Shown: positions 767 through 24,284 of the stretch, piece by piece
Layout: every line of letters begins with the position of its first letter
Position numbering within the stretch: position 1 is the stretch's first letter
NCBI RefSeq assembly: GCF_000787575.1
Contig: NW_012236519.1
Coordinates: 516,256 to 580,255, forward strand
DNA length: 64,000 bases
Direction: 5' to 3'
Source: Acytostelium subglobosum LB1
Taxonomy: Eukaryota; Evosea; Eumycetozoa; Acytosteliales; Acytosteliaceae
Notes under the pieces: model-generated
What the model saw: only the letters and a program-made list of their open reading frames with translations
What the model was told of the DNA's origin: nothing
Database searches by the model: none
Made by a program: the position numbers and the translations under genes

Positions 767-3700
767 ATGAAGATAAGGTATAATCAGGAGTTGGGAGTGT
801 TGGAGAATGCGTTGGTGGAATGTAAGATTGGTGTGATGTTCCTGTGCAAGGGTGAGACTGAGTTGCCAATGCCAAGGATCGAGATCAAGGATGTCGGTGT
901 GCTCTCATTCCCAGTGCCACAAGTGCAGATACAGAGTATGATTGAACGAGCAACACGTGCACCATTTGGTAGAGGAACAGAGACCATCACAGACCTCAAT
1001 GTGCGACGTGTCTGGCAGATACAGAACACAGACATCAACATCACTGGCAAGCCATTTCAAACATTCTTCACAAGCATCACCAACAGCATCAAGGAGTCGA
1101 TGGGTCTCACCAACGATACAGTAACAGCAGAGTTGTACAAGTTGTTGGTCTATGACAAAGGCAGCTTCTTCCTGCCACATCGTGACTCTGAGAAGGCTGA
1201 CAACATGTTTGGAACACTCGTGTTGTCATTGCCATGTCCACATCGAGGTGGTGACCTGGTGATCAATCATTCAGGTCGTGATGAAGTGGTATCATTGGAG
1301 AATGACTCAATGTCAACGATCAAATGGACAGCATTCTTTGCCGATTGTAGACATGAAGTCAAGCCAGTCACTGAAGGCAATCGAGTGTGTCTCGTTTACA
1401 ACCTGTTGAGATCAGGTGGTCGCAACGTGCAGATCAATGCAGCATCAGAACCAATCACTCAAGCATTCAATCAAGTGTTTGGTCGTGTCAATAACGATGA
1501 CGCCAACAACAACGACAACAACTATTATCAATCAAACCTCAAGACCACCACTAGTGTTGCATCTACATCCAATGTATTTGATGATGATGATGAATATATC
1601 TATGAAGATGAAGATGAAGATGATGCTATCTCAACATCAAACATCCCAGAGAAGTTGGTATATTCACTTGATCACGTCTACTCCAAGTCCAACTTCACTT
1701 TGGAATCACTCAAGGGCAACGATGCCACACTAGCCCGCACACTACTCGCCTTTTCCAACGAGTCTATGATCAAGCTAGGTCTTGCATTCATTCAAATTTG
1801 GGAGTAAGTATCAACAAATCAATCATTATACATACATACTGTGTATTAACATACCCTACCTAGACATGGACCACTGGACCATAGTGATGATTATGATGAG
1901 ACTAAGGTGCCAAGCGATACCAAGATCATTCTGAAGGATGTCAAAGATATGGAGACTGGAGCAATAATTGAACGCGATATACGTCTTAGAACCAAGGAGA
2001 TCATGCCAAGTGGATGCATCGACGATCTCAGACCATACTTTGAGGAGGCACATGAGGACACTGGTAAGTTGTGGACACTTGAAAGTTATCATTTGATTGT
2101 GATATCTAACCTTTGTCACTCATTCATTCATTCTTTCATACATTGATAGGCAATGAAGGAGCATCATTTGAAAGATTGTATAGACATTCAGCTATTGTAA
2201 TATGGACCAGTGAGTCCATGGGCAAGTTCACAATGGTCGTGTCACCAGATGTGGCATTGGAGATATTGGAGAAAGAGGTGGCCAAACTTGGTGGCATAGA
2301 TGCCAATCCACTGGTGACTCAAGAGTTGTTTGTCCAAATGATCAAATCACTTGTGAGGGTACCAACAACATCTTATCATATCACCAAGATACTACAACTA
2401 TTGTCAACAATCAAGAATGATCAATACCTTCCAAAGATACTTCATGCACTGTTTGAATCACTTGGCAGACTGTACTGTACTGTGATACACCAGGATACAT
2501 TCATGGAACTGTTGCTCAATAGTCCATCGTGGACCCACGAGTCCATGGGAGGAGTAATGAAAACATTTGTGTCCATGGCCCCGCAGACAGCCCTACTTGA
2601 CCTGTTGGCCAAGTTGTTGGAAGTGAGTGCACCACCAACAAGTTTGCATCATGACAAGTTCGCAATGCTGATCAATATGACCGATCAACTTTCCAATCGA
2701 CTGGATACCATAGAGCAGATCGACCAACTCATATCAATCATCCAACATCCAAAATTCAATCGAGATCGCGAAACAATCCTCATTGGTGTAACATCTGCCG
2801 CTTACAAGATCATAATACAAGAATCAATCAAGGCCAAGGGCGCACACATATGGGTCCCACCAACCAAGTTCAGCACAACAATCTCAAAGGTAGATGCATG
2901 GTACAAATCACTCAGGGATGGCAATGCACCTGTCTACGTGAATGATTATTTGCTCAGCTCAATGTATACAACTGCTCAAGAGCTTGTTTCCAAAAATTAT
3001 TGGTCCATGGACTATGAAGATGTACTGTCCTCACTTCATAAAGTAGAGTCAATCAATGCAGCTCATCCAGAATGGATCGTTGAGAGCACGCACTATCAAT
3101 CATTCCTAAACAATTTGATCAATTACAAGTGGACAAACAACAACAACAACAACAACAACAATATTCAACAAGTCAACTTTGAATTGGTATCCAACAATTT
3201 ATATTCTATTTGGCGACTGGTTCATCCTCACGACTCAATCATCAAAGACTTTATCAACAAGATCTGCACCAGAATGTCAAAAGACCAGATAGTATACCTT
3301 AACCAACCACCCCCAAGTGGCTTCCCATCACTCATTCACATCAGATTGTTGGGACTCTTGCACAAAGACTACGCTGACTCTCCTCACTATGCTACGTTAT
3401 GGGACAATGTCGCCAGGACCAACAAGAAGATGGCAAAGACCAAGCCCGACATAACAAACAACAAGATCGTAGTTGATCAGAAATGTACTTGTGAAAAATG
3501 CAAATGGATGTACAAATTCCTTCAATCAAAAGAGATTAGACTGGAGATGTACATATCGGGCCATGTTGAGGAAATGGCTAAAGAGTTCCCAATAGATGTA
3601 GTGAGAACAGGTTCCTTTTTGGTGCTGACCAAGACCGCTGCCAACTTACAAGAGATAATGAACAAATATTATGATGCTGTCAAAATCTGTCATAGTCTTC

Positions 3701-3828
3701 TACAGATCAAACCTGCCACAAACAACAACAACAACATGTTGTTGACGACAGTGGATGTTGACTCAATACTCAATGATATTGTCAACACAACGCCCGCGCC
3801 TCAAGTCTATCCACACACAATTATTTAA
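767..3828 (+). CDS. 2-oxoglutarate/Fe(II) oxygenase fusion protein, array copy A (971 aa)
   Basis: Exons 767-1803, 1864-2063 and 2150-3828; the introns are in phases 2 and 1 and the frame closes exactly. Residues about 30-215 form a 2OG-Fe(II) oxygenase (prolyl-4-hydroxylase-like, P4Hc-type) core: HRD at 138-140 supplies the first His and Asp ligands, H196 in CRHEVKP the distal His, and R206 in NRVCLVYNL the likely 2-oxoglutarate contact. A 54-residue acidic/Asn-rich linker separates this from the motif PEKLVYSLDHVYS. Exon 2 encodes a short conserved segment (KDVKDMETG, EIMP, ending EDTGNEG). Exon 3 encodes about 550 residues, probably mainly helical, with YRHSAIVIW near its start, a CxCxxC motif (CTCEKC) and a terminal PAPQVYPH. 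The oxygenase fold and ligands are clear. Substrate is unknown, and hydroxylation of a protein is only a family-level guess. There is no signal peptide, so it is probably cytosolic or nuclear. Confidence 0.85.
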
Positions 3829-4153
3829 TTATTTATAGATTATTTATCCAAAGTCAGTAGTTTATTTCCAGAACCATAAAATATCCAGTTTTTTGATCGT
3901 TGAACAAATTTTTGTTGAATCTGGTCAATCTGTTCCCAGAAATGATAAATACATACAGATAAAATGATATAGATACTAGATAGGTTGAGTCCTCATTTGG
4001 ACATTGGCCATAAACCAATGTACCAGATTAGACAAGTGGTAATTATTCAAAGAAAGATCTCGAGACAATGTCTATGTATACGTACTCATTACAAAGTCAC
4101 ATCATCATTATCTCAAATATACATATACATATACATATACATATACCAAGAGG
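3829..4153 (+). promoter_or_regulatory. Copy A/B intergenic region with CATTGG/CCAATG dyad
   Basis: CATTGG at 4002-4007 and CCAATG at 4015-4020 form an inverted repeat about 135 bp before the copy B start. The segment 4009-4031 (CATAAACCAATG then ACCAGATTAG) recurs almost unchanged before copy C at 7540-7563. A short ATATAC repeat follows. Confidence 0.5.
4117..4146 (+). repeat. (ATATAC)5 microsatellite in the copy B leader
   Basis: Five perfect copies of ATATAC end eight bases before the copy B start codon, so the repeat probably lies in the 5' leader. Confidence 0.8.
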
Positions 4154-7100
4154 ATGAAGATAAGATATAATCAGATGTTGGGTGTGTTGGAGAAGGCTTT
4201 GGCACCATGTAAGAAGGGTGCTATGTTCTTGTGCAAGGGTGAGACTGAGTTGCCAATGCCAAGGATCGAAGTGAAGGATGTTGGTCTGCTCTCATACCCA
4301 GTGCCACCAGTACAGATACAAAGTATGATTGAACGAGCCACTCGTGCACCTTATGGCAAAGGAACAGAGACCATCACAGACCTCAATGTGAGACGTGTCT
4401 GGCAGATACAGAACACAGACATCAACATCACTGGCAAGCCATTTCAAACATTCTTCACAAGCATCACCAACAGCATCAAGGAGTCGATGGGTCTCACCAA
4501 CGATACAGTAACAGCAGAGTTGTACAAGTTGTTGGTCTATGACAAAGGCAGCTTCTTCCTGCCACATCGTGACTCTGAGAAGGCTGACAACATGTTTGGA
4601 ACACTCGTGTTGTCATTGCCATGTCCACATCGAGGTGGTGACCTTGTTGTCAATCATTCAGGTCGTGATGAAGTGGTGTCATTGGAGAATGACTCAATGT
4701 CAACGATCAAATGGACAGCATTCTTTGCTGACTGTCAACATGAAGTCAAGCCAGTCACTGAAGGCAATCGAGTGTGTCTCGTTTACAACCTGTTGAGATC
4801 AGGTGGCACCAAAGTGGAGATCAACGCAGCATATGAGCCCATCACTAAAGCATTCAATCAAGTATTTGGTATTGGACATGATGAAGTCAATGATGATGAC
4901 ACAGTGGATGACGAGAACACGGCCACGTTGGACGAGGATCAAAAGAGTGACGATGAATCAGATGATGAAGACAATGACGATGTTCAATCAGATGTAAAGA
5001 TTACCAAGAAAGCCAGGACATCTCTGACAACCAACACAACAACCCAAGTTGATGTGCAAGAAGAGGATGATGACAATGACAATGAAAACAATGAGGATGA
5101 AGATGTTGATGTTGATAACGATGAGGATGATGATGATGATGATAATGTATATGAAGACAAAGACCAGGATGACAATGATGAGGAAGACATGAATAGCAAG
5201 GGCAATCATATCCCAGAGAAGTTGGTATATTCTCTTGAACATGTATACTCCAAGTCCAACTTCACGTTGGAGTCTCTCAAGGGCAGTGACGCAACATTGG
5301 CACGAACATTACAAGCCTTTGCCAATGAGTCCCATATCAAACTGGGTCTGGCATTCATTCAAATCAGGGAGTAAGTATCAATATCTACTCAACATGGATG
5401 TTCATACTAACATTATTTATTTATTAAGAGCTGGACCATGTGAATCACCTGGATATTGTAATGAGAAACACATATCATCAAGAACATCGATCATACTTAA
5501 AGATGTCAAAGATATGGAGACTGGCTCGATCATTTCAGAGGAGATACGGCTTAGGACCAAGGAGATCATGCCACGTGGATGCATCAACAAACTCAAACCA
5601 TACTTTGAGGAGACAAGGGAGGCAACAGGTAAGATTGAGTACATTCTATGTACAAGCTCACTCACTCAATCATTCAATCAACTTTAGGAAATGAAGGTGG
5701 ATCATTCGAGAGACTATACAGACAATCAGCCATTGTAATATGGAGTACTTTGTCTACGGGCAAGTTCACAATGGTGGAATCAGTGGATGTTGTGTTTGAG
5801 ATATTGGAGAATGAGTTGACCAAACTTGGAAGCATAGATGCCAACCCTAAGGCAACTCAAGAGTTGTTCATTCAAATGATCAGGTCACTAGATAGTCATC
5901 CAAAGAAACCAGACCATATCACCAAGATCCTCCAACTATTATCAACAATCAAGGATGGTCAATATCTTCCAAAGATATTACAAACATTGTTGGAAACAAC
6001 TGGTGTACTTTATTGCACTGAAATGCATCAGAATGCATTCTTGGAACTATTCCTCAGAACACCATCAATGACTTACGAGTCTATGGACGAGATATTGAAG
6101 ACATTCAGCAATGCAGTCCTTGAAGGTTCATTGTTGGGCATGTTGGACAAGTTGTTGGAGATGTTTGCTCCCGAGACAAGCATTCATCATGATAAGTGCA
6201 CTCTGCTTCCAAAGTTTGTCGATCAATTTATCGATCGATTGGACAAAATAGAATATATTGACAGACTAGTATCAATCATACAACATCCAATAATCGACGA
6301 ACTTAGACATCTCCAGGACAAGATATCATCATTGGCAAGCCATCTACTCATTCCAAAATTCATCCCAATTCCAAACACAAGATATAATGTCGTTCAACCA
6401 AACCAGAGTTTCAGCACAACCATCTCAATGGTGGATACAATGTCCAAACAACTCAAAGATGGCACAGCACTTTTCTTCGTGAACGACACATTGCTGAGCC
6501 AGATGTACACAAACGCCTTCAAAATTATCATCGACAATAGATCATACTTTGACTATTCAATGATACTTCCAATGCTTCCAGTCATTGAACAACTCAATGT
6601 GGCCCATCCAGAATGGTTGGCTGACGACGAGAACAAGTATTATCAATCATACCTCAAGAAGTTGATTGACTACAAGTTGGAAAACTCTAATGAGACGATT
6701 TCCAACAATCTTTATTCAATCTGGAGAGCTGTGCATGCTGAGGACTCAATCATCAAAGCTTTCATCGCCAAGATATGTATCAAAGTGATCAGAATTCGAA
6801 AGATTCTAACCAGATTGCTTGGACTCTTGCACAACGAGTTTGCCGACTCGCCACACTACGCCACATTATGGGATCAAGTTGCCAAAAGCATTTTGAAGCA
6901 GGCCAAGACCAAGCCAGACACAACAGACAACAAGTTCGATATTGCAGTCGATTGTGATTGTGACGATTGTGGGGGAATCAAGAAATTCCTTATATCCAAT
7001 GAGACCAAGCTGAACCTGTACGTGTCCAAGTGGGATTGTAGTCTTGACCATGTTATTGAGATGACTGAAGACCTCCCACTTGAAAGAAAGGCAACGAGAT

Positions 7101-7381
7101 ATCCATACTGCTCACTAGAGTTGACCAAAACAGAGGAAGGTAAACAAGAGTTATTGGATATGTACAATCAAGCTGTCAACATATGTCATAGTCTGGTCAA
7201 GATACCTCCTTCAAACATATCCAACTTGGACAATGCTGGTGACCTTGACGCAATGAATGCCATAGTCAACTCGACTCCTGCACCACAAGTCTATCCACAC
7301 GACATGCCACCCAAGACTCCACCAATGGTTTTAGATGAGCCAATGGAAGACGATGATAATGATGATGATCAAGAACCATAA
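4154..7381 (+). CDS. 2-oxoglutarate/Fe(II) oxygenase fusion protein, array copy B (1036 aa)
   Basis: Exons 4154-5370, 5429-5628 and 5688-7381, with the same intron positions and phases as copy A. The catalytic HRD (138-140), distal His (196) and Arg (206) are intact. It has the longest linker of the array, 114 residues between NQVFG and PEKLVY, dominated by Asp/Glu runs but interrupted by a basic NLS-like patch (KITKKARTS). The C-terminal module keeps YRQSAIVIW, CxCxxC (CDCDDC) and PAPQVYPH, and ends in an extra acidic tail. Bases 4392-4644 are identical to 1005-1257 of copy A, silent positions included. Same uncertainty about substrate as copy A. Confidence 0.85.
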
Positions 7382-7662
7382 AATATCCAGCTTACCCTAT
7401 TTTTGGTGAATGATAATGAAGCTAGTGATGGCGATCATTCATTCAATCACCCAAAGCGTGTACATATATAAACATACAGATAACATAATTATTACATGAT
7501 GTAGCGATCAGTTACTCCTTTGAGAATCAGATAAAGGGTCATTAAACCAATGAACCAGATTAGCAATCACATTCAGATCTAGACTAACAGCACTCTTTAA
7601 ATACAGCCACAAAGTAACATCATCATTGTCATCATCTTTATCATCAACAAACATACTTAAAT
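7382..7662 (+). promoter_or_regulatory. Copy B/C intergenic region with shared promoter block
   Basis: Bases 7540-7563 match 4009-4031 upstream of copy B, including CCAATG and ACCAGATTAG, at a comparable distance (about 110 bp) from the start codon. One arm of the dyad is degraded here (CATTAA in place of CATTGG). Confidence 0.45.
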
Positions 7663-10600
7663 ATGTATAAACTTATAGATCCACAAAATAATAAGATAGA
7701 TTGTAAATATAACAAGGAGTTGGGAGTGTTGGAGAAGGAGTTGGCTCAGTTTAAGAAGGGCGCGATGTTCCTGTGCAAGGGTGAGGCGGAGTTGCCAATG
7801 CCAAGGATCGAGGTGAAGGATGTTGGTGTGCTCTCATACCCAGTGAGACAGGATCAGTTGCAAAGTATGATTGAACGAGCAACACGTGCACCATTTGGTA
7901 AAGGAACAGAGACAATCACAGACCTCAATGTGAGACGTGTCTGGCAGATACAGAACACAGACATCAACATCACTGGTGATTACTTTGAAACCTACTTCAA
8001 CACCATCACCAACAGCATCAAGGAATCATTGGGTCTGACCAAAGAGGTGGTGACAGCCGAGTTGTACAAGTTGTTGGTCTATGACAAAGGCAGCTTCTTC
8101 CTGCCACATCGTGACTCTGAGAAGGCTGACAAAATGTTTGGAACACTCGTGTTGTCATTGCCATGTCCACATCGAGGTGGTGACCTTGTTGTCAATCATT
8201 CAGGTCGTGATGAAGTGGTATCATTGGAGAATGACTCAATGTCAGCAATCAAATGGACAGCATTCTTTGCTGACTGTCAACATGAAGTCAAACCAGTCAC
8301 TGAAGGAAATCGAGTGTGTCTCGTTTACAACCTGCTGAGATCAGGTGGCACCAAAGTGGACATCAATACAGAACCAGAACCAATCACTCAAGCACTCAAT
8401 CAAGTGTTTGGTCGTGTCGATGAGTCCAATCTCAAGCGCAAAGATGTTGAAGAGAGCGAGGAGCGAGATGGAGATACCGAGGACAAAGTCATCAAGATGG
8501 CCAAGACATCAACAACTACAAGCAAGACTACCAGAGTTGATAATGAGGATGGAGATGATGATGACAAAGACCAGGAGGCAGAAGAAGTCTTTATCCCTGA
8601 GAAATTGGTTTATACGCTTGAACACGTGTACTCAAAGTCCAACTTCACTTTGGAGTCACTCAAAGGTTGTGATGCAACACTGGCGCGAACATTGCAAGCC
8701 TTTGCCGAGGAGTGCCAAATCAAACTCGGTCTGGCATTCATATATGTTACAGAGTAAGTACATATACCTATTCAACTAAGTGATGTAACTAATCATAGCG
8801 TTCATGTCATGGTTGGAACAGAACTGGAGGTTGCGAAGATGGTGGATATCTTGATCCAGACTCGACCAAATTCAGATTGATGAATGTAAAGGACTTGGTG
8901 ACTGGGGCCATGCTGGAGGAGACAATGCCTCTAGACACCAGAGAGATCATGCCTAATGGATGTCTGGACAAGATAAAACCATACTCTGAGGAGGCCCATG
9001 AGGCAACAGGTAGGTTTAGATTACTTCATAAGCCAATGTATGTTTATTGACCTCCTCATCACTCATAGGCAATGAAGGTGCATCATACGAGAGACAGTAT
9101 AGACAATCAGCCATTGTGATATGGAGTACAGAATCAATGGGCAAGTTCACGATGGTACTCTCAAAGGAGGTCGCGTTCAAAATACTCGAGAAGGAGTTGT
9201 CCAAACTTGGAAATGTGGATGCCAACCCTTTGGCGACACACGACCTGTTCATTCAAATGACCAAGTCATTGTTCAGATTGAAACCAACATCAGAGTTTGT
9301 CACCAAGATGCTTGGACTGCTATGCTCAATCAAGTCTGATCAATACCTTCCCAAGATGATGTTGGCCATGCTCGAGACCACTGGAAGCCTCTATCAAACT
9401 GGAATGCATCAGGATGCATTCTTTGAACTGTTGCTCCAACGGTCTTCAATGAATCAAGAGAACATTGACAGTGTGATGTCATCATTCTTTGCAGTTGTCC
9501 CAGTAAGAGCTGCACTTGACATGATGATCAAGCTATTAGATGTTATCAGTTATACACCTGACACACTCGATCATATTGCTGGAGCCACATTGCTCCCCAA
9601 GTTGGCCAATCAGATCATCAACAGACTGGATGCAGTGGAACTGTGCGAAATTATGATCAGCACCGTCCAACAACAAAAGGTGTTTGATGGACAACGACAA
9701 CAACTACTGGACAAGTTGGTATCGGTCGCTCAAGAACTCCTCATGCCCAAGAGTGATGAAATGAGATGGTCTGATTATTTCTCCAAACATTGGTCTCGCT
9801 TCCACAAAGACCTCAAACAACCAACTGTGACATTCGACACGATCATTTCAAAGATTGAGAGTCTGGAATCATCACTGGGTGATGGCAATGCGCCAATCTA
9901 TGTCACCGACTCATTTCTTTGCCAAATGTACACACAGGCATTCAAGGTTGCTACTAAAGGAAGCAATCTTGACTACATTCTGCCAGTCCAACCAAACATT
10001 GAACGACTCAATGCTGCGCACCCCTCTTGGGTAGCCAACAACCCCTCCTACGATGAGATGCTCAAGATGATGATCGACTACAGGTACGATTCCAAAGATG
10101 GTGACCACAATCAAACGGCCAACAAACTTTATGCATTATGGAGGTTGGTGCATGCCCATCCAGGAACACTCATATTCGACTATGTCACCAACATAGATGG
10201 CTTAAAACCGAGGGATCATTACTACAACCATGCCAAAGACATCCCTATCGACGCACTTGTATTATTGTTGGGACTCCTGCACACTGAGTTTGGAAACTCT
10301 CCCCATTACACCACTCTTTGGGATAATGTTACCAAGACACTCAAAAGCAGGATAGTGATCAGGCACGATGCAGACCCCAATTTCAAAGTCTACATAAATT
10401 GTACATGCGACACCTGCCAAGACCTGGTCAGCTTCCTCCAATCCAAACATGTATTCACGAAGATTTCTGTCTACACAGATAGAATGGATCATTTCCTAAA
10501 GGAGGCAGCAAACTTCAAGCTTGAGGTTAGCAAGGGTTACTTTAATACTTTAGAGTTAAAAAAGACCAGCGGATTCTATGAGGTCAAGTTGGACCACCAC

Positions 10601-10765
10601 AATGCCGATATCAATAGGTGTCACTGTCTCTTCCAATTGAGGCCCCCAAACAGAGATGAGGTACTCAGAGATGTCATCTGCTTGAAACCTGCACCAGAAG
10701 TCTATCCACACACCTTGGCAAAGGTAATCACACCCATCACACCAACCCTACGACTCAGACGATGA
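7663..10765 (+). CDS. 2-oxoglutarate/Fe(II) oxygenase fusion protein, array copy C (991 aa)
   Basis: Exons 7663-8753, 8822-9009 and 9069-10765. The N-terminus is about 11 residues longer than in A and B, which moves the catalytic residues to about H149, D151, H207 and R217. The linker is 61 residues with a basic patch (KMAKTSTTTSK) and an acidic end. The acceptor at 8820-8821 was chosen because it alone gives frame continuity into the conserved KDLVTG...EIMPNG segment, and it replaces the start of exon 2 with a different short sequence (TGGCEDGGY). The C-terminal module carries YRQSAIVIW, CTCDTC and PAPEVYPHTLAK. The C-terminal modules of C and D look closer to each other than to A and B, suggesting two sub-lineages. 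Confidence 0.85.
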
Positions 10766-10874
10766 ATACTAGTTGGTTATCTGGCACCATTATATTTACT
10801 AAGTTAATTAAGTGTTTATTAAATAAGTTTGTTACCGATTATATCCATCTAATGTCTGTTTATTTAGGACTTGA

Positions 10875-12007
10875 TTATTGAGCGCACAGCATGCGGGACT
10901 CAATGTCGAAGGGAAACTGTGGAAAGATGTTCATGGTGGATTGATGTGTTTGTAAATCGGTGGAATAGACTAGGTAGATAATTGAAGTGTCTTTCTGATT
11001 CACAACTAATGAAACAATGTAACCGGATTGATCAAACGCAAACTGAGCATTGGTGTTGGTTTCCACTTTAAACACTCTCTTGAACTTCTTGGCGCTAATG
11101 TCCAGTACGCCAATTTCAATGTGTTTGTCCTGTTGGATGCAGGCATACAATGTAGACTGATACATATAGAGCTGTTGAACACTGCCGCCGATCATATCCA
11201 GGTAATATGGTATCTCCACGTATTCAAATGTCTTGGTCTTCAACGAGTATATGCCTATTGGCAACGAGAAGATTGGGATGCCGGTAAAGATCGACACATT
11301 GTATCCATACAGATAGTACAAATGAGTTGTACTGTCATATTGGCCATAAGCATATAACATGCATTTGTTACCTTTAAATGGAATGTTCACACTGATTGAT
11401 GTGGTATGTATGTCATTCATACAAGGGATGAGTTGTTAGAGGATTATAGCATAACATTAATAATTGGCACGGTAGTGTTCTTCTTACACTGATTGATTGT
11501 TCAGATCAAAGATTGCGAGGTTTGACACTGAGGTATTGTCGCAATAGGTGGCCAATGCCAGTCCACTTTCAAGGTCTACAGAGTTGACTTGATAGATGAT
11601 AAAACCATCGTTTGCCAACTCTTCATTGAACATAGCCTTTGTCGTCAGTTCTCCAGTCTGTCTGGTCAGATTGAATTGTTAATAATGATGAGCACCTGTA
11701 GGATATTGTCCTATCAATCAATCAATCATACCTGACCGTTAAAGATGGATATAGACATGTCCGTACCAAGCCCTTGGACCATGACCATGTAATCATTGCC
11801 GGAGCATTGGAGGAGGTCGACGACGAATGGGCTCACCTGGTTCTGTATTAGTTGGCCAGAAGTAAAGTTGAAAAGAGTGAAATTGCCATTTGTGATACAT
11901 CTGAATGTCGACAATGTAGTTGGGCGGGAATCAATGCAGGATGACTGTGACCAAAACAACACCAACGACAACAACAACATCCACGATACTCTATGTTGTG
12001 TTATCAT
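10875..12007 (-). CDS. Predicted secreted protein, possibly beta-propeller-like (320 aa)
   Basis: Exons 12007-11732, 11657-11488 and 11391-10875 on the minus strand. Junctions are in phases 0 and 2, and the frame closes at 963 nt. Residues about 9-24 (WMLLLSLVLFWSQSSC) form a clear signal-peptide core. The rest is rich in beta-type, aromatic segments (YLYGYNVSIF, IYLVYSTDLQ) resembling irregular propeller blades, with no transmembrane helix or GPI signal at the C-terminus. I cannot name the family. It lies inside the oxygenase array in the opposite orientation, between copies C and D, and shows no similarity to them. Its presence there implies an insertion or an array duplication around an older gene. 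Confidence 0.6.
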
Positions 12008-12317
12008 GATTAGATTGAGATGAGTGAGTGAGTGAGTGAGTAAGTGAGTATATTATATATTCGTTGATTTTAAACAATAAGGTATATAATTCATTGAGAT
12101 ACAAGTACTTGTTGTATAGTAGTAGGGTAGTCTGATGAGGGAGAGATATGACTTGAAGACAAGTAAGAACATTCCTTGGAATGACATCTGAACCTTTGAC
12201 ATTGAAAGTAATTGGATACCTTCCAAGAGCAGGATTAATTAACATTTTTGATTGGTTTGGAAAGTCGTCAGGCCCAGCAACATCGTAAAAGTTGGGCGAA
12301 ACTTCATCCCCACTTGA
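11991..12317 (-). pseudogene. Possible orphan coding fragment
   Basis: An open frame on the minus strand runs from just after a stop at 12318-12320 for more than 80 codons. It includes a coding-like stretch (SPNFYDVAGPDDFPNQ, NPALGRYPITFNVKG) before degrading into repeat-derived residues. There is an internal ATG at 12245 but no splice-supported link to the gene starting at 12007. It could be a gene remnant, an unrecognised exon or chance. Confidence 0.2.
12021..12050. repeat. (TGAG)n tetranucleotide repeat
   Basis: Tandem TGAG/AGTG units directly upstream of the minus-strand gene start at 12007. Confidence 0.7.
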
Positions 12318-12527
12318 TCATTGTATCACATCAGTTGAAACAGATAAACATAGACAGATAACTGAGCCACTCCATATGGAGGAGAAGGCATAGTAGCTAG
12401 ATGAAGGATGTTTATCATTGGTACATACCAATGAATGGATGAATGAACAACAGATTTAAATCTGGGGATCTTGATGACTCACATCATCATCATCAACGTC
12501 AACATCAACATATATTACTTACCTACT

Positions 12528-12528
<1 letters not shown>

Positions 12529-12558
<30 letters not shown>
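12529..12558 (+). repeat. (CAA)10 tract in the copy D leader
   Basis: Ten uninterrupted CAA triplets lie just upstream of the copy D start. They are probably transcribed but untranslated. Confidence 0.75.
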
Positions 12559-12569
12559 ACAAATGAATA

Positions 12570-15502
12570 ATGGTATACCGCACAGTCAAGATAGATTATA
12601 ATAAGGTATTGGGAGTGTTGGAGAAGGCTTTGAAACAATGTAAGACGAGTACAATGTTCCTGTGCAAGGGTGAGACTGAGTTGCCAATGCCAAGGATCGA
12701 GGTGAAGGATGTTGGTCTGCTCTCATACCCAGTGCCACCAGTACAGATTCAGAGTATGATTGAACGAGCCACTCGTGCACCATTTGGCAAAGGAACAGAG
12801 ACCATCACAGACCTCAATGTGAGACGTGTCTGGCAGATACAAAACAAGTATATCAACATCACAGGCAAGCACTATCAAACCTACTTCAACTCAATCACCA
12901 AGAGTATCAAGGAATCAATGGGTCTGACCAACGAGGTAGTGACAGCAGAGTTATACAAGTTGTTGGTCTATGACAAAGGCAGCTTCTTCCTGCCACATCG
13001 TGACTCTGAGAAGGCTGACAACATGTTTGGAACACTCGTGTTGTCACTGCCATGTCCTCATCGAGGTGGTGACCTGGTTGTCAATCATTCAGGTCGTGAT
13101 GAAGTGGTGTCATTGGAGAATGACTCAATGTCAGCAATCAAATGGACAGCATTCTTTGCTGATTGTCAACATGAAGTCAAGCCAGTCACTGAAGGATGTC
13201 GTGTTTGTCTCGTTTACAACCTGTTGAGATCTGGTGGTACCAACGTGGACATCAACGTTGATTCAGAATCAATCACTCAAGCATTCAATCAAGTGTTTGG
13301 TCGGTTCACCAAAAAGCCCAGTCATATCCCAGAGAAACTGGTTTATACACTTGAGCATGTCTACTCCCTTTCCAACTTCACATTGGAGTCACTAAAGGGC
13401 AGTGACGCAACATTGGCACGCACCTTACAGGCCTTTTCCAACGAGGCCCAGATCAGACTTGGTCTGGCATTCCTTCTCATCACAGAGTAAGTCGTTCATT
13501 ACAATTTCATTGATCAAACAATGATCATGACTCTAACAAGCTCATGTGGTAAAGGGAAGGAATATACGAATATGATGAAGATCCAAGTAGTACCACAATC
13601 ATATTGAATGATGTCAAAGACCTTGAGACTGGAACAATACTTGAGAAGAACATGCCCCTTGACAACGGTGAGATCATGCCCGATCGATGTCTGGACAAGA
13701 TCAAACCATACTCAAAGGAGGCCCAAGAGGCAACGGGCAATGAGGGTGCTTCATATGATCGACTATATAGACGATCGGCGATTGTGATATGGAGTACAGA
13801 GACCTTGGGCAAGTTCACAATGGTACTCTCAAAGGAACATGCATTCGATACATTGGAGAAGGAGTTGTCCAAACTCGGAGGAGTGGACGCCAACCCACAA
13901 TCAACACACGATCTGTTCATTCAAATGACCAAGTCATTGTACAGAGTTCGTCCAACATCAGAGTTTGTCTCCAAGATGCTTGAACTGCTGTGTTCAATCA
14001 AGTCTGATCAATACCTTCCCAAGATGATGTTGGCCATGCTCGAGACCACTGGAAGCCTCTATCAAACTGGAATGCACCAGGATGCATTCATGGAACTGTT
14101 GCTCAAAAGGCCTTCAATGAATCATGAGAACATTGACAGTGTGATGTCATTTGCATCTGTCGTCCCAGTGGGTGATGGCATGGACATGTTGATCAAGTTG
14201 TTGGACATTATCAATCATACTCCCCAAATGCGATCAACAACACTATTCCCCAAGATGGCCCAACAACTTATCAAACGATTGAATAATGTCCAACAATGTG
14301 ACACACTCATCAGTATAATCCAGCAACAGAAAGTGTTTGATGGACAACGACAACAACTCCTGGACAAGCTAATAGTTGTCGCTCAAGGACATCTCATGCC
14401 CGATCATCAAAAGATCAGATGGACCAGAGATTCAATCAAGGATACCGAAGTCACATTGGCCACGTTGATAACAAATATTGAGAGTCTCTTCAAGACACTT
14501 GGCGAGGGACAAGCTCCCATATACATCAACGAATCATTCCTTGGTCAAATGTACAAGAAGATATTCGATGATATCAAAACATGGAGAAGCCTTGACATTG
14601 AATGTCTTCTGCCAGCCTTGCCAATCATTAATCGTATCAACTTGGTATATCCATACTTGGTAATGGAGAACAATGACTATGACTCGATGCTCAAGAACCT
14701 CATTGAATACAAGTATAAATACGATATGACAGACGACAATCTAGCAGCGAACAAACTATATTCAATCTGGAAGTTGGTGCGTGGCAATGATTCACTCCTC
14801 ACAGCCTTTGTCAACAATATCTGTGGACTCAAGAAGCCAACATCAATGTATGATACGGATAAGCCTATCGAGTTCCCATCTGGAACACTCATATTGTTGC
14901 TTGGACATCTGTACCCTGAGTTTGTCAGCACAACACAATACATATCACTCTGGGATCACGTGACCAAGGAGAACTTGCACAAGACAATGAAGAAGCCCGA
15001 CATTGACGACCCCAGTATAGAGGTCAAGTGGCATTGTTCATGTGTGTCGTGTTCAAAGGTGACTGATTTCCTCCGTTCAATGGACACATCCTTGAAGATG
15101 ACGGTCTCGAAATTCCTCGACCAGAAGAATGTGATGATCATGGTGGATCGATTCAAACTGGATAAAAAGATTCTAAAGGATTCCAATGAGGAGGAAGAGG
15201 AGGAGGATGATGGAGATGGTGCGACCACTATATTATTGACAAAGTCCAATGATTTCCAACAACTCAAGTTGAACATATACAATGATGCCATCAACATCTG
15301 TCACAGTCTATTCCAGATCAGGCCGGCCAACAGCGACTATCTACTCACTAGTGTGATCAACAAATTCCCTGCGCCCGAAGTCTATCCACACACTTTAGCC
15401 AAGATCATAACGATCCCTGAACCTCCAAATGAAGTTAAATCAGAAGATGATGATGATTATGATGATGATGATGATGAAGTTGGTGAAGATGAAGTTGATT
15501 AA
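12570..15502 (+). CDS. 2-oxoglutarate/Fe(II) oxygenase fusion protein, array copy D (954 aa), second intron lost
   Basis: Exons 12570-13486 and 13555-15502. The second intron of copies A, B, C and E is absent: the sequence reads straight through EATGNEGAS. Catalytic residues are about H143, D145, H201 and R211. The linker is reduced to nine residues (RFTKKPSHI) with no acidic tract. The C-terminal module keeps YRRSAIVIW, CSCVSC and PAPEVYPHTLAK, and adds acidic runs near 15190 and at the C-terminus. An out-of-frame ATG at 12563 overlaps the chosen start. I chose 12570 because it leads in frame into the conserved IDYNKVLGVLEKAL. Confidence 0.85.
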
Positions 15503-15633
15503 TTAATTAATTGCAAATAAATGATGTTCAATCTCTTCCAAAATTGGTAAAGTGGTTAGAGTCCACTCGGTCGAATTACTGATCATGTGATCAATCACAA
15601 ACACATATATATATACACAAAAGAGAGAGAGAT

Positions 15634-18600
15634 ATGATTATACAGTATAATAATAATAATAAAGAGTTGGAGAAGGCTTTGGCACAATGTAAGAAGGGTG
15701 CTATGTTCATGTGCAAGGGTGAAGCTGATTTGCCAATGCCGAGGATTGATGTGAGGGATGTGGCCGACCCACTGTCATTTCCAGTGAGACAGGATCAGTT
15801 GCAGGGTATGATCGAACATGCTACACGTGCACCTTATGGCAAAGGAACAGAGACGATCACAGACCTCAATGTGCGACGTGTCTGGCAGATACAGAACACA
15901 GACATCACCATCACGAGCAATCATTTCCAGACATTCATGAGTGGCGTGATCAGCGTCATCAAGGAGTCGATGGCATTGGTGAACGAGACAGTGACAGCAG
16001 AGTTGTACAAGTTGTTGGTCTATGACAAAGGCAGCTTCTTCCTGCCACATCGTGACTCTGAGAAGGCTGACAACATGTTTGGAACACTCGTGTTGTCGTT
16101 GCCATGTCCACAACGAGGTGGTGACCTGGTGATCAATCACTCAGGTCGTGATGAAGTGGTGTCATTGGAGAATGACTCGATATCCACGATCAAATGGACA
16201 GCATTCTTTGCTGATTGTCAACACGAAGTCAAGCCAGTCACTGAAGGCAATCGAGTGTGTCTCGTTTACAACCTGTTGAGATCAGGTGGCAAGAAACTGG
16301 ACATCAGCATAGCATCCTCTTCATCCATCATCCAAGGATTCAAACAAGTCTTTGGTGGTGCTGATGCGGAGATGGAGATGAAGGACGACCACATGGATTC
16401 CGAGGATGATGATGAAGATGATGAGGATGACGTCAAGATCGTCAAGAAGTCCAAGACATCGACAACAACAAACATAACAACCAAAGTTGACAGTGATCAA
16501 TCAGATGACGAAGATAGTGATGGTGATGATGGTGGCGGCGGTGTTGGTGATGGTGAAGGTGAAGTTGATCTCATACCCAAGAAGTTGGTGTATTGCCTTG
16601 ATCATGTATACTCTATTGCCAACTTCACTTTGGAGTCACTCAAGAGCAGTGATATATCATTGGCGCGTACATTATTGACTCTTGCCGATGAATGCAACAT
16701 CAAACTTGGTCTGGCATTCATTCATATCAAGGAGTAAGTACCATACATACATCACTCATTCATCAATCATTCAATCATTCACTCACTCATTCCCTCGTCC
16801 ACTCAAGATCTGGAGACTGCATGGATGGCGAGTTATTTGGTATAAATAAATCGAGTATCATATTGAATGATGTCAAGGACCTTGAGACTGGTACCATCCT
16901 CGAGCAAACAATGCCCCTTCATCATAATGAGATCATGCCATCTGGTTGTCTCGACAACATCCGTCCATACTCTGACGAGACCAAAGAAGCAACAGGTATG
17001 ATACCCATTCAATCAATCAATCATTTTCATACTAACATACACATGTGCACCCAACAGGTAATGAAGGTGGAACGTATGAGAGGCAGTACAGACGATCAGT
17101 GATAGTGGCATGGAGCCAAGCGATCATGGGCAAGTTCACAATGATCATTTCAACTGATGTCGCTTTGAAAGTGATGACCACAGAGTTGGCCAAGCTTGGA
17201 GGCATCGATGCCAACCCAAAGGCAACACATGATCTGTTTGATCAAATGTTCAAATCGTTGAACAGAGTGACCATCACACCGGACCACGTTTCCAAGATGC
17301 TGGGACTATTCCAATCAATCAAGAATGATCAATACCTTCCCAAACTACTTCAATACTTCTTTGTGTATGCTGGAAACCAAGTCACTGGATCTGATGCTCA
17401 TTTGGATGTCATCCAGGAACTATTGCTAAAGAGACCGTCAATGAACAAGGACGACACGATGCTTATGATGATGACTGGTTTCATGTCACTTGTTACTCAG
17501 GATGTGGCTCAGACTATGATGTCCAGGTTGTTGTCGTACGTGACATCTTCCCCAGAGGACACGCGACTGAACGACATATTGCCCATACTGGCCAATCAGC
17601 TCACAAGAAGTTTGGACACGATCGAGCAATGTGACAAACTTATCAACATGGTCCAACATCATTCATTGTTTGATGACGATAGACAAGAGATATTGGATGC
17701 GATATCATTGGTCGCTGGTGAACTACTCGTTCCAAAGATGCCCAAGTCTGATCGATCGTGGCCAGGAAGATCAGTCGTTGCCAAACCGCGCAAAGGTCAG
17801 ACCTTGAATACCATCACCAATATCGAGCGATTGGCCAAGTTGCTGAGTGAGGGCATAGCTCCAATATACGTGACCGACTCAATACTATGCAATATGTACA
17901 ATCAGGTACTTAGAATCATTGATGTCCAACGAGATGGCACTGGCCTAGGTGAGGAGGAGCTCATGGCCTCGATGCCCATCATGGAGAGGATCCATACAGC
18001 GCACCCTGAATGGATCAAGAATCAACACTACACTGGTGTGCTACAACTTTTGATCGATCATAAGCCTATCGACCAAGAGGGCGCACATCTGTATATGATC
18101 TGGAGGATCATGGTCCAAGATGGTGGCCGCCACCTCCAGTTGTTTGTCAACAAACTCTGTGGTGGCGTCACATCGAGCGCGCTCCTCAACTTGCTCAAAC
18201 TTCTGCACGCCAATGAGTTTGCTGCCGCCAACTCGAGCACCAACACACACTACGCGACACTCTGGGTATATCTCACCAAGATCAACATCACGCTGGCAAA
18301 GACCAAGCCCACAGGCAACCAATTATGCGTCATCATGCCAACATGTCAATGTAGCAACTGCAAGAAGATGGCTACATTCCTGAGTTCACAGAATACGGTC
18401 CAGGAGTTCTCATTCGACACCCGTGACAATCGTAGTCATCTTGAGTCCGTTGCCAGCAGGTACAGCCTGGGACAAGTGTATGGCAGAGGTCGGCACCCAC
18501 AGCCATTGACCGTGAAGAAGACCCCCGCCAACATTGCCGAATCACTAAACAGGTATAACGAGGCGGTCATCATTTGTCATGGTCTGTCACCGATCAGACC

Positions 18601-18733
18601 TGAGGCTGCAGCAGCAGGACCGACTGGTGACATTCTCAATGAGGTGATCAATGGCACGCCCATGCCAATTGTTGCCAACGTGGACGAAGAGGATGAGGAG
18701 GAAGACGATGGTGATGTGGAAGTCATACGCTAG
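15634..18733 (+). CDS. 2-oxoglutarate/Fe(II) oxygenase fusion protein, array copy E (987 aa)
   Basis: Exons 15634-16733, 16808-16995 and 17058-18733, with intron phases as in copies A to C. Catalytic residues are about H139, D141, H197 and R207. The 73-residue linker has acidic and Gly-rich runs around a basic patch (KIVKKSKTS). It is the most diverged C-terminal module: YRRSVIVAW, CQCSNC and a more Ala/Gly-rich sequence. The terminal PAPxVYPH motif of the other four is lost, replaced by TPMPIVAN and an acidic tail. Only 131 bp separate it from copy D, so it may rely on a short promoter or on read-through from D. Confidence 0.85.
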
Positions 18734-19180: not shown

Positions 19181-21595
19181 ATGTTTTCAAAGAGTTTGAG
19201 TCTACTTCTTATCCTGAGTTTGTCACTCTTTATCTCCACTTGTAAGCAATTCTCACCCATTCTCATCAACTAGCTCACTCCATCACTCACGACTGACTCA
19301 CTTTAATCAATCATCCAAAAAGGTAATGGAGCTATAGTTGTGACAGCAATCGACTATGCTGGTACATTTGCTAATATGGGTGCTACTGGAATGACTGGAA
19401 CCACTGCCATGTACATAAGGAGAGCTGACAACTCCGTATATGCACTCGGTATCGCACAATTGAGCACTTTTGGAGCAAAAATCACCTATGGCTCCGATGT
19501 CCCATTGCACGGAACACTCGTTGCCACACAGGGTGGCACAGACTATGATATCGCCTTGTGGGGCGCCTCTCAAATCATCAAGACCTCGGCAATTTCCACT
19601 GCTGGCGGTCCGATCACTATTGTCGGAGCCCTCTTCCAGAACGACCCAGCCATCAACCAACTCAGCCAACTTGTTGTCCTTATCCCACCCAATACTGTTT
19701 CGTTCATTGTCACCGCCACTCAAATGAACACAGAAACCATGTCCATCTTCAACATCAGCTACGCTGAGTCCCACCCCGTCGGTATCAATTGCATTCAAGG
19801 AATGACAACAACTGCCAACATCTACCCTGATGGAGACTACAGCCAATCTGTCACATGGGCCAAGAGAAGGAACCTCTTTACTTTCGGTGTTCAATGTATG
19901 TCATGGTACTTTATTGATTGATTGATTGAATGATCAATGTCTGGAATGATCCCATGCTGACACTCCTCCTCCATCACATGCCAACCAATATAGCACCTAG
20001 CATGGCCTCGTACCTGTTGGTTAATTCCGGAAATTCGATCCAAATTTCTGGCAACAACTATGGTTGTGATATTAACAAGGTTGTTGTCAAGTTGGCCGGT
20101 ATCCAATTGACAGTCACCACATTTGTCGACCATTACTCTTTCACGGCAACTCTTCCCAAGGCTTCATCTGCCGTCTTTGATACCACCGGTCTCTCAGTCC
20201 CAGGCACCAAGTCTCTAACCATTGCCATCAGTGGTCTAACCATGCCAGCTCAGCCAATTATTATCGGTATGCATCACCTTTAAACCTGAGCAATCAACTT
20301 CAAACTAACCTAATCAATCAATCAATCAATCATGTTTAGCTCCATTCATCACCTCTGTTACCAGTGTTCAGAGTGTCACAGGAGGAAGAGTGACCATCAC
20401 TGGAAGCAACTTGAGCACAAGGAATGCTGACAACTCGACTGTTGCATACACCATTATGATGGGCACCATTGCTTGTGCCGTCGATCCAGAGATGGAGGTC
20501 GTGTCCAACAGACTGACCTGTATCATGCCAAGTGCCGAGTACTCGGATGCCTATCAACCCCTTGCCGTCAAGGTCACCATCAACAATGTTGCATCAAGCG
20601 GCGACGTCTCCTTCAACTACATCGTTCCATCTTTCACCTCTGAGCCATTCCAATTCGGCCAGGTGATCATCATCAGAGGCGAGAGTATGGGTAGCTTTGA
20701 GACCATGCAGGTCTCGTTGGGCGGGGTGAACACCTCGTTCGCCGCCACCATCCTGCGTGAGGCCAGCCAGATTTTGGTCCTGCCAATCGCTTCCACCCCA
20801 CTCGGCGAGCCACAGACTGTTTTGGTGAGCAATGGAGTAAACCTTGTCGACTCTGATGTCACACTCCAACCGACCAACATGACTGTGTCCAACGTCAGCC
20901 TGCCAGTCTCTGGTGGCAGTGTTAACATCACTTGGTCGCCAGTCGAAATGATGAACAATGTGGACAAGGAAGACATTATCGTCCCCCAATGCATCGAGTA
21001 CGACTGGTCCGTCGCCGGAGATATGATCATCTGTCAGTTGCCAGCCGGTACCGGACTCAACCAGCCACTCACCATCACAGTGTACAACGTTACCGCGTTC
21101 ACTGGTTCATTCAGCTATTTGTCGCCAGTTCTCCGCAACGTCAGCAGCGTTGGCAAGGATGGAGGTGTGATCACCATCACTGGTGACAACTTCTTCCCAA
21201 CAGACAATGTTGCCGTCGTCATTGGCGACATTACCTGCAAGAATGTCAATGTGACCGATGAGCACACCATCACCTGCTCGATCGAGAAGGCCGACCTCCC
21301 CTCCACCCTGCCCACTGGCGAGCAAGAGATCAAGGTCACCATCGGAGAGCAAGAGGTCAAGGCTCCAGTGTTCACATTCACTCAGCCAACCAACCCAACC
21401 ACCTCCACTACCTCCACTACCTCCTCCACTACCACCACTTCCCCAACTACCACCACCTCTACCTCTACCTCTACCTCTACTACTTCATCTACCACTACCA
21501 CTACCACTGCCAACCCAAGCTCAGCAAACCGTCTCATGAATGGAATGATCTTCACAATCTCCGCAAGCCTAATCGGCATGTTGTTGATTGCCTAA
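19181..21595 (+). CDS. GPI-anchored IPT/TIG-domain surface protein 1 (720 aa)
   Basis: Exons 19181-19241, 19323-19895, 19994-20266 and 20340-21595; all junctions are phase 1 and the frame closes. It has a signal peptide (about residues 1-20, SLLLILSLSLFIS), a roughly 190-residue N-terminal domain encoded by one exon, then about four or five immunoglobulin-like IPT/TIG repeats (GGRVTITGSNL, GGVITITGDNF). A Thr/Ser/Pro stalk of about 45 residues follows, then a C-terminal hydrophobic tail preceded by small residues, typical of a GPI-anchor signal. Dictyostelid proteins of this layout (contact site A, Tgr family) act in cell-cell adhesion and recognition. Adhesion here is inference. C-ending codons dominate, suggesting high expression. 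Tandem with the next gene. Confidence 0.85.
21395..21515 (+). repeat. Thr/Ser stalk-coding low-complexity tract
   Basis: Repeated ACTACC, ACCACC and TCTACC units encode the mucin-like stalk of surface protein 1. The same tract in the paralogue (about 24145-24200) is less than half as long. Confidence 0.7.
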
Positions 21596-21952
21596 TCATC
21601 ATCATATCCTCAAGTTATAAAATAAACACCATTTACATTGAATTGGTAATATTATTGATTGATCTAGTGATTGGAATTCCAAATGGTATACTAGAACTCT
21701 CCAAACATAGTTGGAACTAGTTGGGCGAGGCAGCGTGTTGGGTTACACACCCTTTCCCAACATGGTCCCCCAAGAGTGTCACAAAAAGGGTACAAGTGTT
21801 TGATCGATTTTGTGATCAAATTCGTTTGTGGGCCAAAAGATATCTTTGTTGTACAACTCCAAGAACAACCAAACGACATCAACCTCGGACTCTTGTTAAC
21901 TGTTAACAGTCTATCAATTTCATAAGGTTACTTATTTACAAATATACAGATA
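21596..21952 (+). promoter_or_regulatory. Upstream region of surface gene 2 with the shared dyad
   Basis: Contains TTTGATC at 21799-21805 and GATCAAA at 21814-21820, flanked by TTCGTTTGTGGG, matching the element upstream of surface gene 1. A second inverted repeat, GTTGGG (21737-21742) and CCCAAC (21756-21761), lies upstream. Confidence 0.5.
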
Positions 21953-24284
21953 ATGACATCAAATTATACAAGTGTTTTTCTTATCCTGAGCTTGTCTCTA
22001 ATACTACTCTTTGTTTCATCTTGTAAGTATAAAATTACACTTGATCACTCAATGAATGAATGAATGAATGACTCACTCAATCAATCAAATTAAATAGGTG
22101 ATGGACAAATAGTTGTAACTGCAATTGATTATGCTGCTAATTATGCTAATATTGCAGCCACTGGATTGTTGGGAACTACTGCAATGTCTATTAGGAGAGC
22201 TGATAACAACGCCATTTATGCACTTGGTGTTGATCAAGTGCATGCATTGGGTGCCAGGGTAACCTTTGGCACTGATGCTCCTTTGCATGGAACACTAATT
22301 GCAACACAAGGTGGCCAACCAAAAGATATCTGTCCATGGGCCATATCAGCAATGGTAAAGACATCAGCACTACCTACAGCTGGTGGACCCTTAACCATTA
22401 CTGGTGCCTTCTTCCAAAATGACCCCACCATCAATCAACTTAGCGAGGTCGTTGCACTTGGTACTGCAACTCCAATCTTCCTTGTCACTGCCACACAAAT
22501 GAACACTGATTCGACTGCCATCTTCAACATCAGCTATCCTGACCTCCACCCAGTCGGTATCAACTGCCTACAAGGACTATCAAACAGCGCTGAGTTCTAC
22601 CCTGATGGAGACTATGGCCAGAACACCCAATGGGCAAAAAGGAAGAACCTCTTCACCTTCAATATTCAACGTATGTCAAGTGATCATTATGATTGATCGA
22701 GGTCTGGAATGATCCCATATTGACCCCCAACACACCCAAACATAGCCCCAACTATCACAACACTCCAACTTATATTAACTGGAACAGTGATCAACATCAA
22801 TGGTAACAACTTTGGTTGTGACATTTCAAAGGTTGTTGTTAAGTTGAACAAGATATCATTGCCAATTGTCAAGTTGGTCGATCATTACACTATACAGGTC
22901 AGTCTGCCCAATGCCACCTCCAACTACTTTGACGCAACAGCTCTCTCAATGCCAGGCAACAAGTCACTAACAATGACAATCAGTGGTCTTGGCGGCAACA
23001 TGGTTGCTCAAAAATTAACAATCAGTAAGTATAGTGATTGATGGAACACAATCAATCACTCACTCACTCACTCAATCAAACATTTTAGTGCCATTTACTA
23101 TATCTGTTACCAGAGTTAGTATGATCATGGGAGGAAGAGTGACCATCATTGGAAGTAATTTGAGCACAAGGAATGTTGATAACTCAACTGTGGCATACAC
23201 CATTATGATGGGCTCATTGACCTGTGCAGTCGATCCACTTATGGAGGTAGTGTCCAACCAACTCACCTGCATCATGCCAAGTGCCACATACGCTCAAGCT
23301 GAGCAATACATGCCAGTCGTCGTCACAATCAATGGTGTGTCATCAATTGGCAACATAGCATTTAGCTACATCCAGCCCTCTTTGACCTTCCAACCATTCC
23401 AATTCGGCCAACAGATTGTAATTAGTGGCAAGGATATGGGTACCCTTGATACCATGCAGGTCGAGTTCAATGGAGTGAACAGCACATTCTCTACCACCCT
23501 CCAGCGTGATGATGGCACTCAGATCATGTTGCTTCCAGTCCCAGCATTGGTCCCACTTGGTGAGCCTAAGCCATTGAACACGATGAACAATGGACAGTCT
23601 ATAGTCGAGGCAGAAATATCAATTCGAGAGATGAACATCACCTTGTCCAACACCACCATGCCCGTCACTGGAGGTTTGGTTATCATCACTGGTGCACCAG
23701 TTGGACTGTTCAAGCCGATGATCATCAATGATATTGGTGTCCCTCAATGCAAGTCCATCGAATGGATTGAAGACCCACCAAAGATCAGCTGTCAATTGCA
23801 AGGTGGCAGTGGTCTCAACATGCCACTCACAGTCACCTTGTACAATGTTACAGCACTCACGACTACATTCAGTTATTTATCACCAGTACTATACAGTGCA
23901 AGCAGCATTGGCCAAAATGGAGGTGTGATCACAATCATTGGTGATAACTTTGCCCAAGTTAATGATCTGGCCGTGGTCATTGGTGGCATCACATGCAAGA
24001 ATGTCCAAGTAACCGATGAGCACACCATCACATGCTCTATCCACAAACAAGACTTGCCATCAACATTGCCAACTGGTGAACAAGTGGTCAAGGTCACAAT
24101 GGGACAACAAGATGTTCTTGCTGCATTGTTCACATTCACTCAGCCACCACCAACTACCACATCCACTACCTCCACTACCTCTTCAACAACGACCACAGGT
24201 AATCCAAGCTCGGCAGACCGTCTCGTGAACAGTATCATGTTCACAATTGTCATAAGCCTTATTATTAGCATGATGTTGCTCTAA
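21953..24284 (+). CDS. GPI-anchored IPT/TIG-domain surface protein 2 (705 aa)
   Basis: Exons 21953-22022, 22098-22670, 22746-23024 and 23089-24284, with intron positions and phases matching surface gene 1; exon 2 is 573 nt in both. It has a signal peptide (FLILSLSLILLFVSS), an N-terminal domain, IPT/TIG repeats (GGRVTIIGSNL, GGVITIIGDNF), a short Thr/Ser stalk and a C-terminal hydrophobic GPI-type tail. It is clearly a tandem duplicate of its neighbour but uses more A/T-ending codons, suggesting lower expression or relaxed codon selection. Role in adhesion is inferred from architecture. Confidence 0.85.

Follow-up and report, generated by a model that had tools for sequence, protein, structure and literature searches.

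The question raised by this locus of Acytostelium subglobosum is why neighbouring genes should join a nearly constant predicted oxygenase core to C-terminal modules that differ strongly from copy to copy, and what such proteins might act upon. The window, that is, the whole stretch of 64,000 nucleotides that was analysed (positions 516256-580255 of contig NW_012236519.1, here C43; G+C 0.40-0.49; genome searched, 30.7 Mb), carries five of these genes, g1-g5. Rebuilt splice models bear out the preliminary description of five intact genes of 954-1036 codons, with clean GT-AG splicing and one terminal stop in each, and positions 767 and 18733 are exactly the first ATG of g1 and the last stop of g5:

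767-3828, plus strand: gene g1, 971 aa; exons 767-1803, 1864-2063 and 2150-3828
4154-7381, plus strand: gene g2, 1036 aa; exons 4154-5370, 5429-5628 and 5688-7381
7663-10765, plus strand: gene g3, 991 aa; exons 7663-8753, 8822-9009 and 9069-10765
12570-15502, plus strand: gene g4, 954 aa; exons 12570-13486 and 13555-15502; intron 2 absent
15634-18733, plus strand: gene g5, 987 aa; exons 15634-16733, 16808-16995 and 17058-18733

Exon 1 encodes the oxygenase core followed by a linker and a conserved 53-codon tail, the middle exon spans 188-200 bases, and the last exon encodes the long module; in g2 an alternative acceptor would place an exon start at 5697 and yield a protein of 1033 aa. A small middle exon had been ascribed to every copy, but it is separate in only four of the five, the middle segment of g4 being fused to the last exon. 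Among g1-g5, dN/dS is 0.17-0.64 for every pair with computable dS (five regions, linker left out), which argues that these are coding genes, under purifying selection in the measured parts, rather than chance ORFs; antisense ORFs of at least 100 aa within the core occur only in g1, g2 and g5. With residue differences among the five of 8-24% in the core and 46-64% in the module, repeated assembly of a single gene cannot account for the array, and such an artefact was ruled out. Inside the array, between g3 and g4, minus-strand ORFs at window positions 10875-12317 look like an unrelated gene, for which a Pfam match was sought in the piece 10875-11432 and none was found.

The genes had initially been taken for a five-copy tandem array; all five are real, but they form the end of a larger array with 12 copies. 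Genome searches with core and module place 12 cores in one same-strand array on C43, from approximately 487.0 to 535.0 kb, of which the last five (g1-g5) lie within the window and seven more (c1-c7) upstream of it. Genome-wide, 15 cores were found, namely the 12 of the array, a dispersed copy, s244, at 244 kb of C43 and single copies on contigs C17 and C38, and the same 15 are recovered when a bacterial relative is used as query; these counts are lower bounds. A run of 1312 N at C43:514944-516255 ends exactly at the start of the window and may hide a portion of the array.

The oxygenase cores of the window genes are located at the start of exon 1:

767-1483, plus strand: oxygenase core of g1, with residues H138, D140, H196 and R206; PF13640 match
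4154-4870, plus strand: oxygenase core of g2, from its catalytic residues and alignment to g4
7663-8412, plus strand: oxygenase core of g3, from its catalytic residues and alignment to g4
12570-13301, plus strand: oxygenase core of g4, PF13640 match and catalytic residues
15634-16356, plus strand: oxygenase core of g5, PF13640 match and catalytic residues

The proposed 2OG-Fe(II) oxygenase identity is supported by PF13640 (2OG-FeII_Oxy_3), which scores 30.7-31.5 bits against a cut-off of 27 in all three first exons scanned (g1, g4 and g5); identity to the first exon of g4 is 86% for that of g2 and 83% for that of g3. The catalytic H, D, H and R, expected in all five, are indeed present in all five as HxD, a distal H and an R at +10, and are kept in 12 of the 15 genome copies. 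The cores thus share both the catalytic motif and the profile match with the PF13640 superfamily, although PF13640 covers only ~90 core residues. By family, a 2OG oxygenase core adopts a double-stranded beta-helix; the full-length model of a bacterial relative is strand-rich at 115-211, with low confidence (mean pLDDT 53.8, too poor for a fold search). In NCBIfam, the named families closest to the core are PKHD/YbiX-type Fe2+-dependent dioxygenases, all far below cut-off, as illustrated by the PKHD-type hydroxylases (NF003974; 25.7 bits against a cut-off of 143). Judged by their sequences, all five window genes probably encode active enzymes, and the likeliest reading is that these are Fe(II)/2OG protein hydroxylases.

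The C-terminal module of ~550 residues was reported as unassignable, and it yields no match above limits in Pfam, NCBIfam, PHROGs or PDB sequences. Among the five last exons, nothing exceeds the Pfam cut-offs, neither the best match (DUF1687 in g5, E 0.0077, 17.1 bits against 27) nor any HEAT/ARM family, for which TAF6_C HEAT in g5 comes closest (E 0.16, 12.1 bits against 27.1). For three modules, no NCBIfam match lies above cut-off and no PHROGs match has E < 0.2 (best E 0.21), and comparison of the modules with PDB sequences gave a best E of 0.3 (g4), with no match using the profile. In the predicted structure of the module, 19 helices between residues 93 and 476 are followed by strands at 512-518, 536-540 and 556-562, and the pLDDT of this helix-to-strand span is mostly 75-90. 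The model suggests a helical HEAT-like solenoid with a small alpha/beta end domain that would start at a cysteine cluster; a VIA-align structure scan of this model returned helical solenoids only, at background Z and unspecific. The cluster has the form CxCxxC:

3484-3501, plus strand: CxCxxC of g1, in the last exon
6953-6970, plus strand: CxCxxC of g2, in the last exon
10400-10417, plus strand: CxCxxC of g3, in the last exon
15035-15052, plus strand: CxCxxC of g4, in the last exon
18344-18361, plus strand: CxCxxC of g5, in the last exon

The description of this motif as invariant is accurate for the window genes (5/5) but not for the genome, where only 11 of the 15 copies carry it, the four without it being c4, c6, s244 and C38.

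An architecture confined to dictyostelids was ruled out by full-length bacterial relatives of the same build. Bacterial proteins annotated as '2OG-Fe(II) oxygenase', such as WP_100923131.1 of Thiodictyon pTs485 and WP_225006078.1 of Bradyrhizobium barranii, have the full-length architecture seen in the amoeba, with a common order of core, post-core segment, GNEG segment at the module start, long module and Cys-cluster end region. The predicted architecture is thus neither dictyostelid-specific nor new; the new part is the expansion in the amoeba together with the two-rate evolution of the array genes. The bacterial relatives are ~750-800 aa long, compared with 954-1036 aa in the amoeba; each matching genome or record yielded a single one, some of them on plasmids, and no function was found for them beyond the annotation as '2OG-Fe(II) oxygenase'. 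Scanning bacterial genomes for patterns from the module alignment identified three loci in purple sulphur bacteria, each encoding a full-length protein, whereas the corresponding scan with the core alignment returned no relatives although relatives exist, indicating that the pattern-scan method misses some. In a same-phylum sample, matches were present in 9 of 398 genomes, including the centre genome (G003), one in each and two of the nine partial. Matches also occur in 23 of 72,556 plasmid records (Bradyrhizobium 13, Streptomyces 4, Microvirga 3 and three others), of which 12 are conjugative, 2 mobilizable and 9 non-mobilizable. A viral or phage link was rejected, no relatives having been found in phage records or viral contigs, an absence that is weak given the short seed patterns of the viral-contig scans and the failure of the core scan to recover the bacterial relatives.

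A profile built from 11 bacterial rows (four of 15 proteins, L053-L056, were left out and the partial L059 and L060 were unused) was applied to a limited set made up of these proteins and control sequences. It matches the core of g1, g2, g3 and g5 with domain E-values of 1e-73 to 4e-78 and their stretch from behind the linker to the GNEG segment with 3e-29 to 3e-23, while in g4 the two merge into one domain (E 3e-111); five reversed control sequences gave no match. The Cys region is matched in all five proteins at E-values from 0.08 to 4e-6, the weakest being g1 and g4 (0.05-0.08). No match covers the middle of the module, and upon removal of the first 60 module residues the profile recognizes only g3 and g5 (2/5 modules), so that the long middle part can be called homologous by its position but not by its sequence. 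CxCxxC is present in 10 of the 11 bacterial rows, the exception being the Streptomyces row, which has Cx3CxxC and contains neither the string HRD nor CxCxxC. Another alignment, A3, misplaced the last exons and served for core comparison only.

The linker separating the core from the exon 1 tail had been portrayed as variable and acidic, which applies to four of the five window genes, while that of g4 has 8 residues and no D or E:

1484-1642, plus strand: linker of g1, without the basic motif
4871-5209, plus strand: acidic linker of g2, 52 D/E of 113
8413-8592, plus strand: linker of g3
13302-13325, plus strand: linker of g4, 8 residues only
16357-16572, plus strand: linker of g5
5006-5044, plus strand: motif KKARTSLTTNTTT in the g2 linker, NLS-like
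8494-8532, plus strand: motif KMAKTSTTTSKTT in the g3 linker, a variant outside K(K/R)x(K/R)
16444-16482, plus strand: motif KKSKTSTTTNITT in the g5 linker, NLS-like

In 11 of the 15 linkers, including that of the C38 copy, alignment by eye reveals K-[KRM]-[AS]-[KR]-[TI]-S and, after it, T-rich residues, around which the linkers are otherwise unalignable; a regular expression for the motif finds nine of these 11, misses c3 and C38 and adds a partial match in C17. K(K/R)x(K/R) constitutes a classical monopartite nuclear signal, and nine of the 11 motif copies fit it, c7 and g3 having KMAK instead; no such motif occurs in g1, g4 or the truncated s244. The basic motif may send many copies to the nucleus, a proposal that is weakened by the window genes themselves, only two of five of which fit K(K/R)x(K/R) (g1 and g4 are without the motif and g3 has a variant). 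No long acidic linker of this kind was seen in the three bacterial proteins aligned. A nuclear-type motif would also suit enzymes whose substrate is a nucleic acid or small molecule and not a protein, with the Cys cluster, which recurs in all five window genes and in nearly all bacterial rows, serving as a nucleic-acid-binding zinc site. This we consider improbable, given that all five proteins are acidic (pI 4.7-5.5), as are four of the five linkers, and that the best named neighbours of the core, albeit far below cut-off, are PKHD/YbiX-type dioxygenases.

Silent divergence separates the two ends of the proteins. Among g1-g5, dS is 0.19-0.49 in the core and 0.53-2.64 in the four remaining regions, apart from a single value of 3.52 and three saturated pairs in the last region. 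The step sits at the linker, inside exon 1, where the pooled pS rises from 0.26 in the core to 0.55 in the 53 codons after the linker, and the 100 bases before the start codon are only 44-63% identical. Mean pS in core and module is, respectively, 0.24 and 0.64 within c7 and g1-g5 (15 pairs), 0.41 and 0.65 between s244 and these six copies (6 pairs), 0.48 and 0.73 between c2, c3, c6 and the same six (18 pairs), and 0.66 and 0.74 between the C17 copy, on another contig, and nine array copies (9 pairs); the 11-copy module analyses leave out c1 and C38, which have no usable module row, and c4 and c5, which have partial rows. The dispersed s244 pairs with g4 as its sister in the module tree (support 100) as well as in the core tree (support 68), and in the module it is as far from g4 as g3 is (pS difference 0.016, interval -0.063 to 0.094), whereas in the core it is 1.7 times as far (difference 0.171, interval 0.076 to 0.270). 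Site-pattern conflict is 0.54 in the core but 0.40 in the module, even though the core is the less diverged, and among c7 and g1-g5 near core sites conflict less than far ones (P < 0.0005 for all sites; 0.007 and 0.015 for third positions). Because of the silent step at the linker, the partial escape of s244 and the conflicting core sites, we favour gene conversion, limited to the array and bounded by the start codon and the linker, as the process likely to homogenise the core.

The low silent divergence of the core could instead reflect selection on codons or on an RNA element in the core, with the array evolving by ordinary birth and death. Codon bias is indeed stronger in the cores of c3-c7 and g1-g5 (ENC 39-46) than in those of s244, C17, C38, c1 and c2 (49-53), and s244 exhibits more silent but not more replacement change, a pattern that plain conversion does not predict. 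Moreover, an AU test rejects neither the core nor the module tree (0.065, 0.064), the main clades being common to both, and a run-length test for conversion tracts is not significant after correction. The PHI signal is likewise seen in the module, for all sites and for third positions with a 100-base window (P < 0.001), although with a 60-base window the module third positions give no signal (0.28). Selection on codons should not, however, end abruptly at a linker inside exon 1, nor does it sit easily with the strong bias that c4 and c6 keep despite damaged modules, or with the greater number of conflicting sites in the less divergent core. A further point against it is that the C17 copy, with its catalytic residues intact, shows no slowing, a comparison that is weakened by saturation of the module. 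We therefore regard codon or RNA-level selection as rather unlikely, but as the most serious competitor of conversion.

Outside the window, the copies include predicted pseudo-enzymes and broken genes. HxD is absent from c1, Q replaces the first H in c2, and C38 lacks the first H and the R; c1 also has stops in the module, the c4 module is cut short, and c6 combines a stop near the start of its core with a full-length module that lacks CxCxxC. An inverted fragment of c1 (C43:488543-489190) is 47% identical to the c2 module, and c1 possesses its own forward copy of the region as well. In s244 (C43:244086-247071), the core and a C-terminal piece point forward, but the middle segment and most of the module between them run in reverse, a layout that represents either an internal inversion or an assembly fault. 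The C38 copy (C38:43499-45601) comprises core and middle segment only, no module having been found after it, and is followed by a repeat ORF that is FNIP-like by eye. The C17 copy looks the least derived, because its ending, PHTLVLTKN-ASY, is close by eye to the bacterial PHTLxCTKNQASY.

Copy expansion, a uniform core with divergent modules and the presence of decayed copies could also mark a repertoire for defence or self-recognition, in which the solenoid would bind foreign or non-self proteins, the oxygenase would mark them and the copies would be kept variable. The sporadic bacterial relatives, some on plasmids, and a match of the core to a PADLOC model named '2OG' are in keeping with this, but the PADLOC match covers only the 2OG domain, and across six of the 23 plasmid neighbourhoods no constant partner gene was found, the gene standing alone. 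In addition, no positive selection on the module was seen (dN/dS never exceeds 0.64), a result that counts against an arms race, although divergence among the modules is too great for a sensitive test. A defence or self-recognition role thus appears improbable.

Aspartyl hydroxylase and the prolyl 3-hydroxylases likewise join a helical-repeat domain to a protein-acting 2OG oxygenase, with the repeat domain at the N-terminus of secretory proteins; they are absent from the PDB sequence matches. The C-terminal extra domain of OGFOD1/Tpa1 is a second beta-helix, whereas the amoeba module model consists mostly of helices. The ribosomal prolyl hydroxylase OGFOD1/Tpa1 (PMC4543633) is, like the predicted amoeba proteins, a eukaryotic 2OG oxygenase. 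No account of this solenoid-fused oxygenase family was found in the literature, as covered by titles and the opening lines of abstracts, and the words 'oxygenase', 'hydroxylase' and 'tandem' are absent from the main text of the A. subglobosum genome paper (PMC4334915). We suggest that the solenoid holds a protein partner on which the core hydroxylates a residue, and that gene conversion keeps re-copying the core between neighbours, such that the array members would share one chemistry. The indel-rich linker would stop conversion, allowing the docking solenoid of each copy to drift towards its own partner. That Fe(II)/2OG/O2 oxygenases with solenoid docking, many of them nuclear, a conversion-homogenised core and diversified docking jointly explain the locus is a possibility that we put forward tentatively. 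It is unlikely, though conceivable, that the array forms a modular modification repertoire that evolves new protein-hydroxylation targets quickly, perhaps in self or microbe recognition.

The array links a bacterial family annotated only by its catalytic domain to a large amoeba expansion, in which nature has varied the putative docking part and left the catalytic part almost unchanged. This makes it a convenient setting for tracking down the substrate of the whole family and for studying how oxygenases acquire new targets. Soon after the array, IPT/TIG-domain ORFs are located at window positions 20309-24284, and repeats that resemble them by eye adjoin the C38 copy. Further downstream, a gene with DUF7034, DUF7035 and ComC supersandwich domains is found on the minus strand at window positions 30326-32809.
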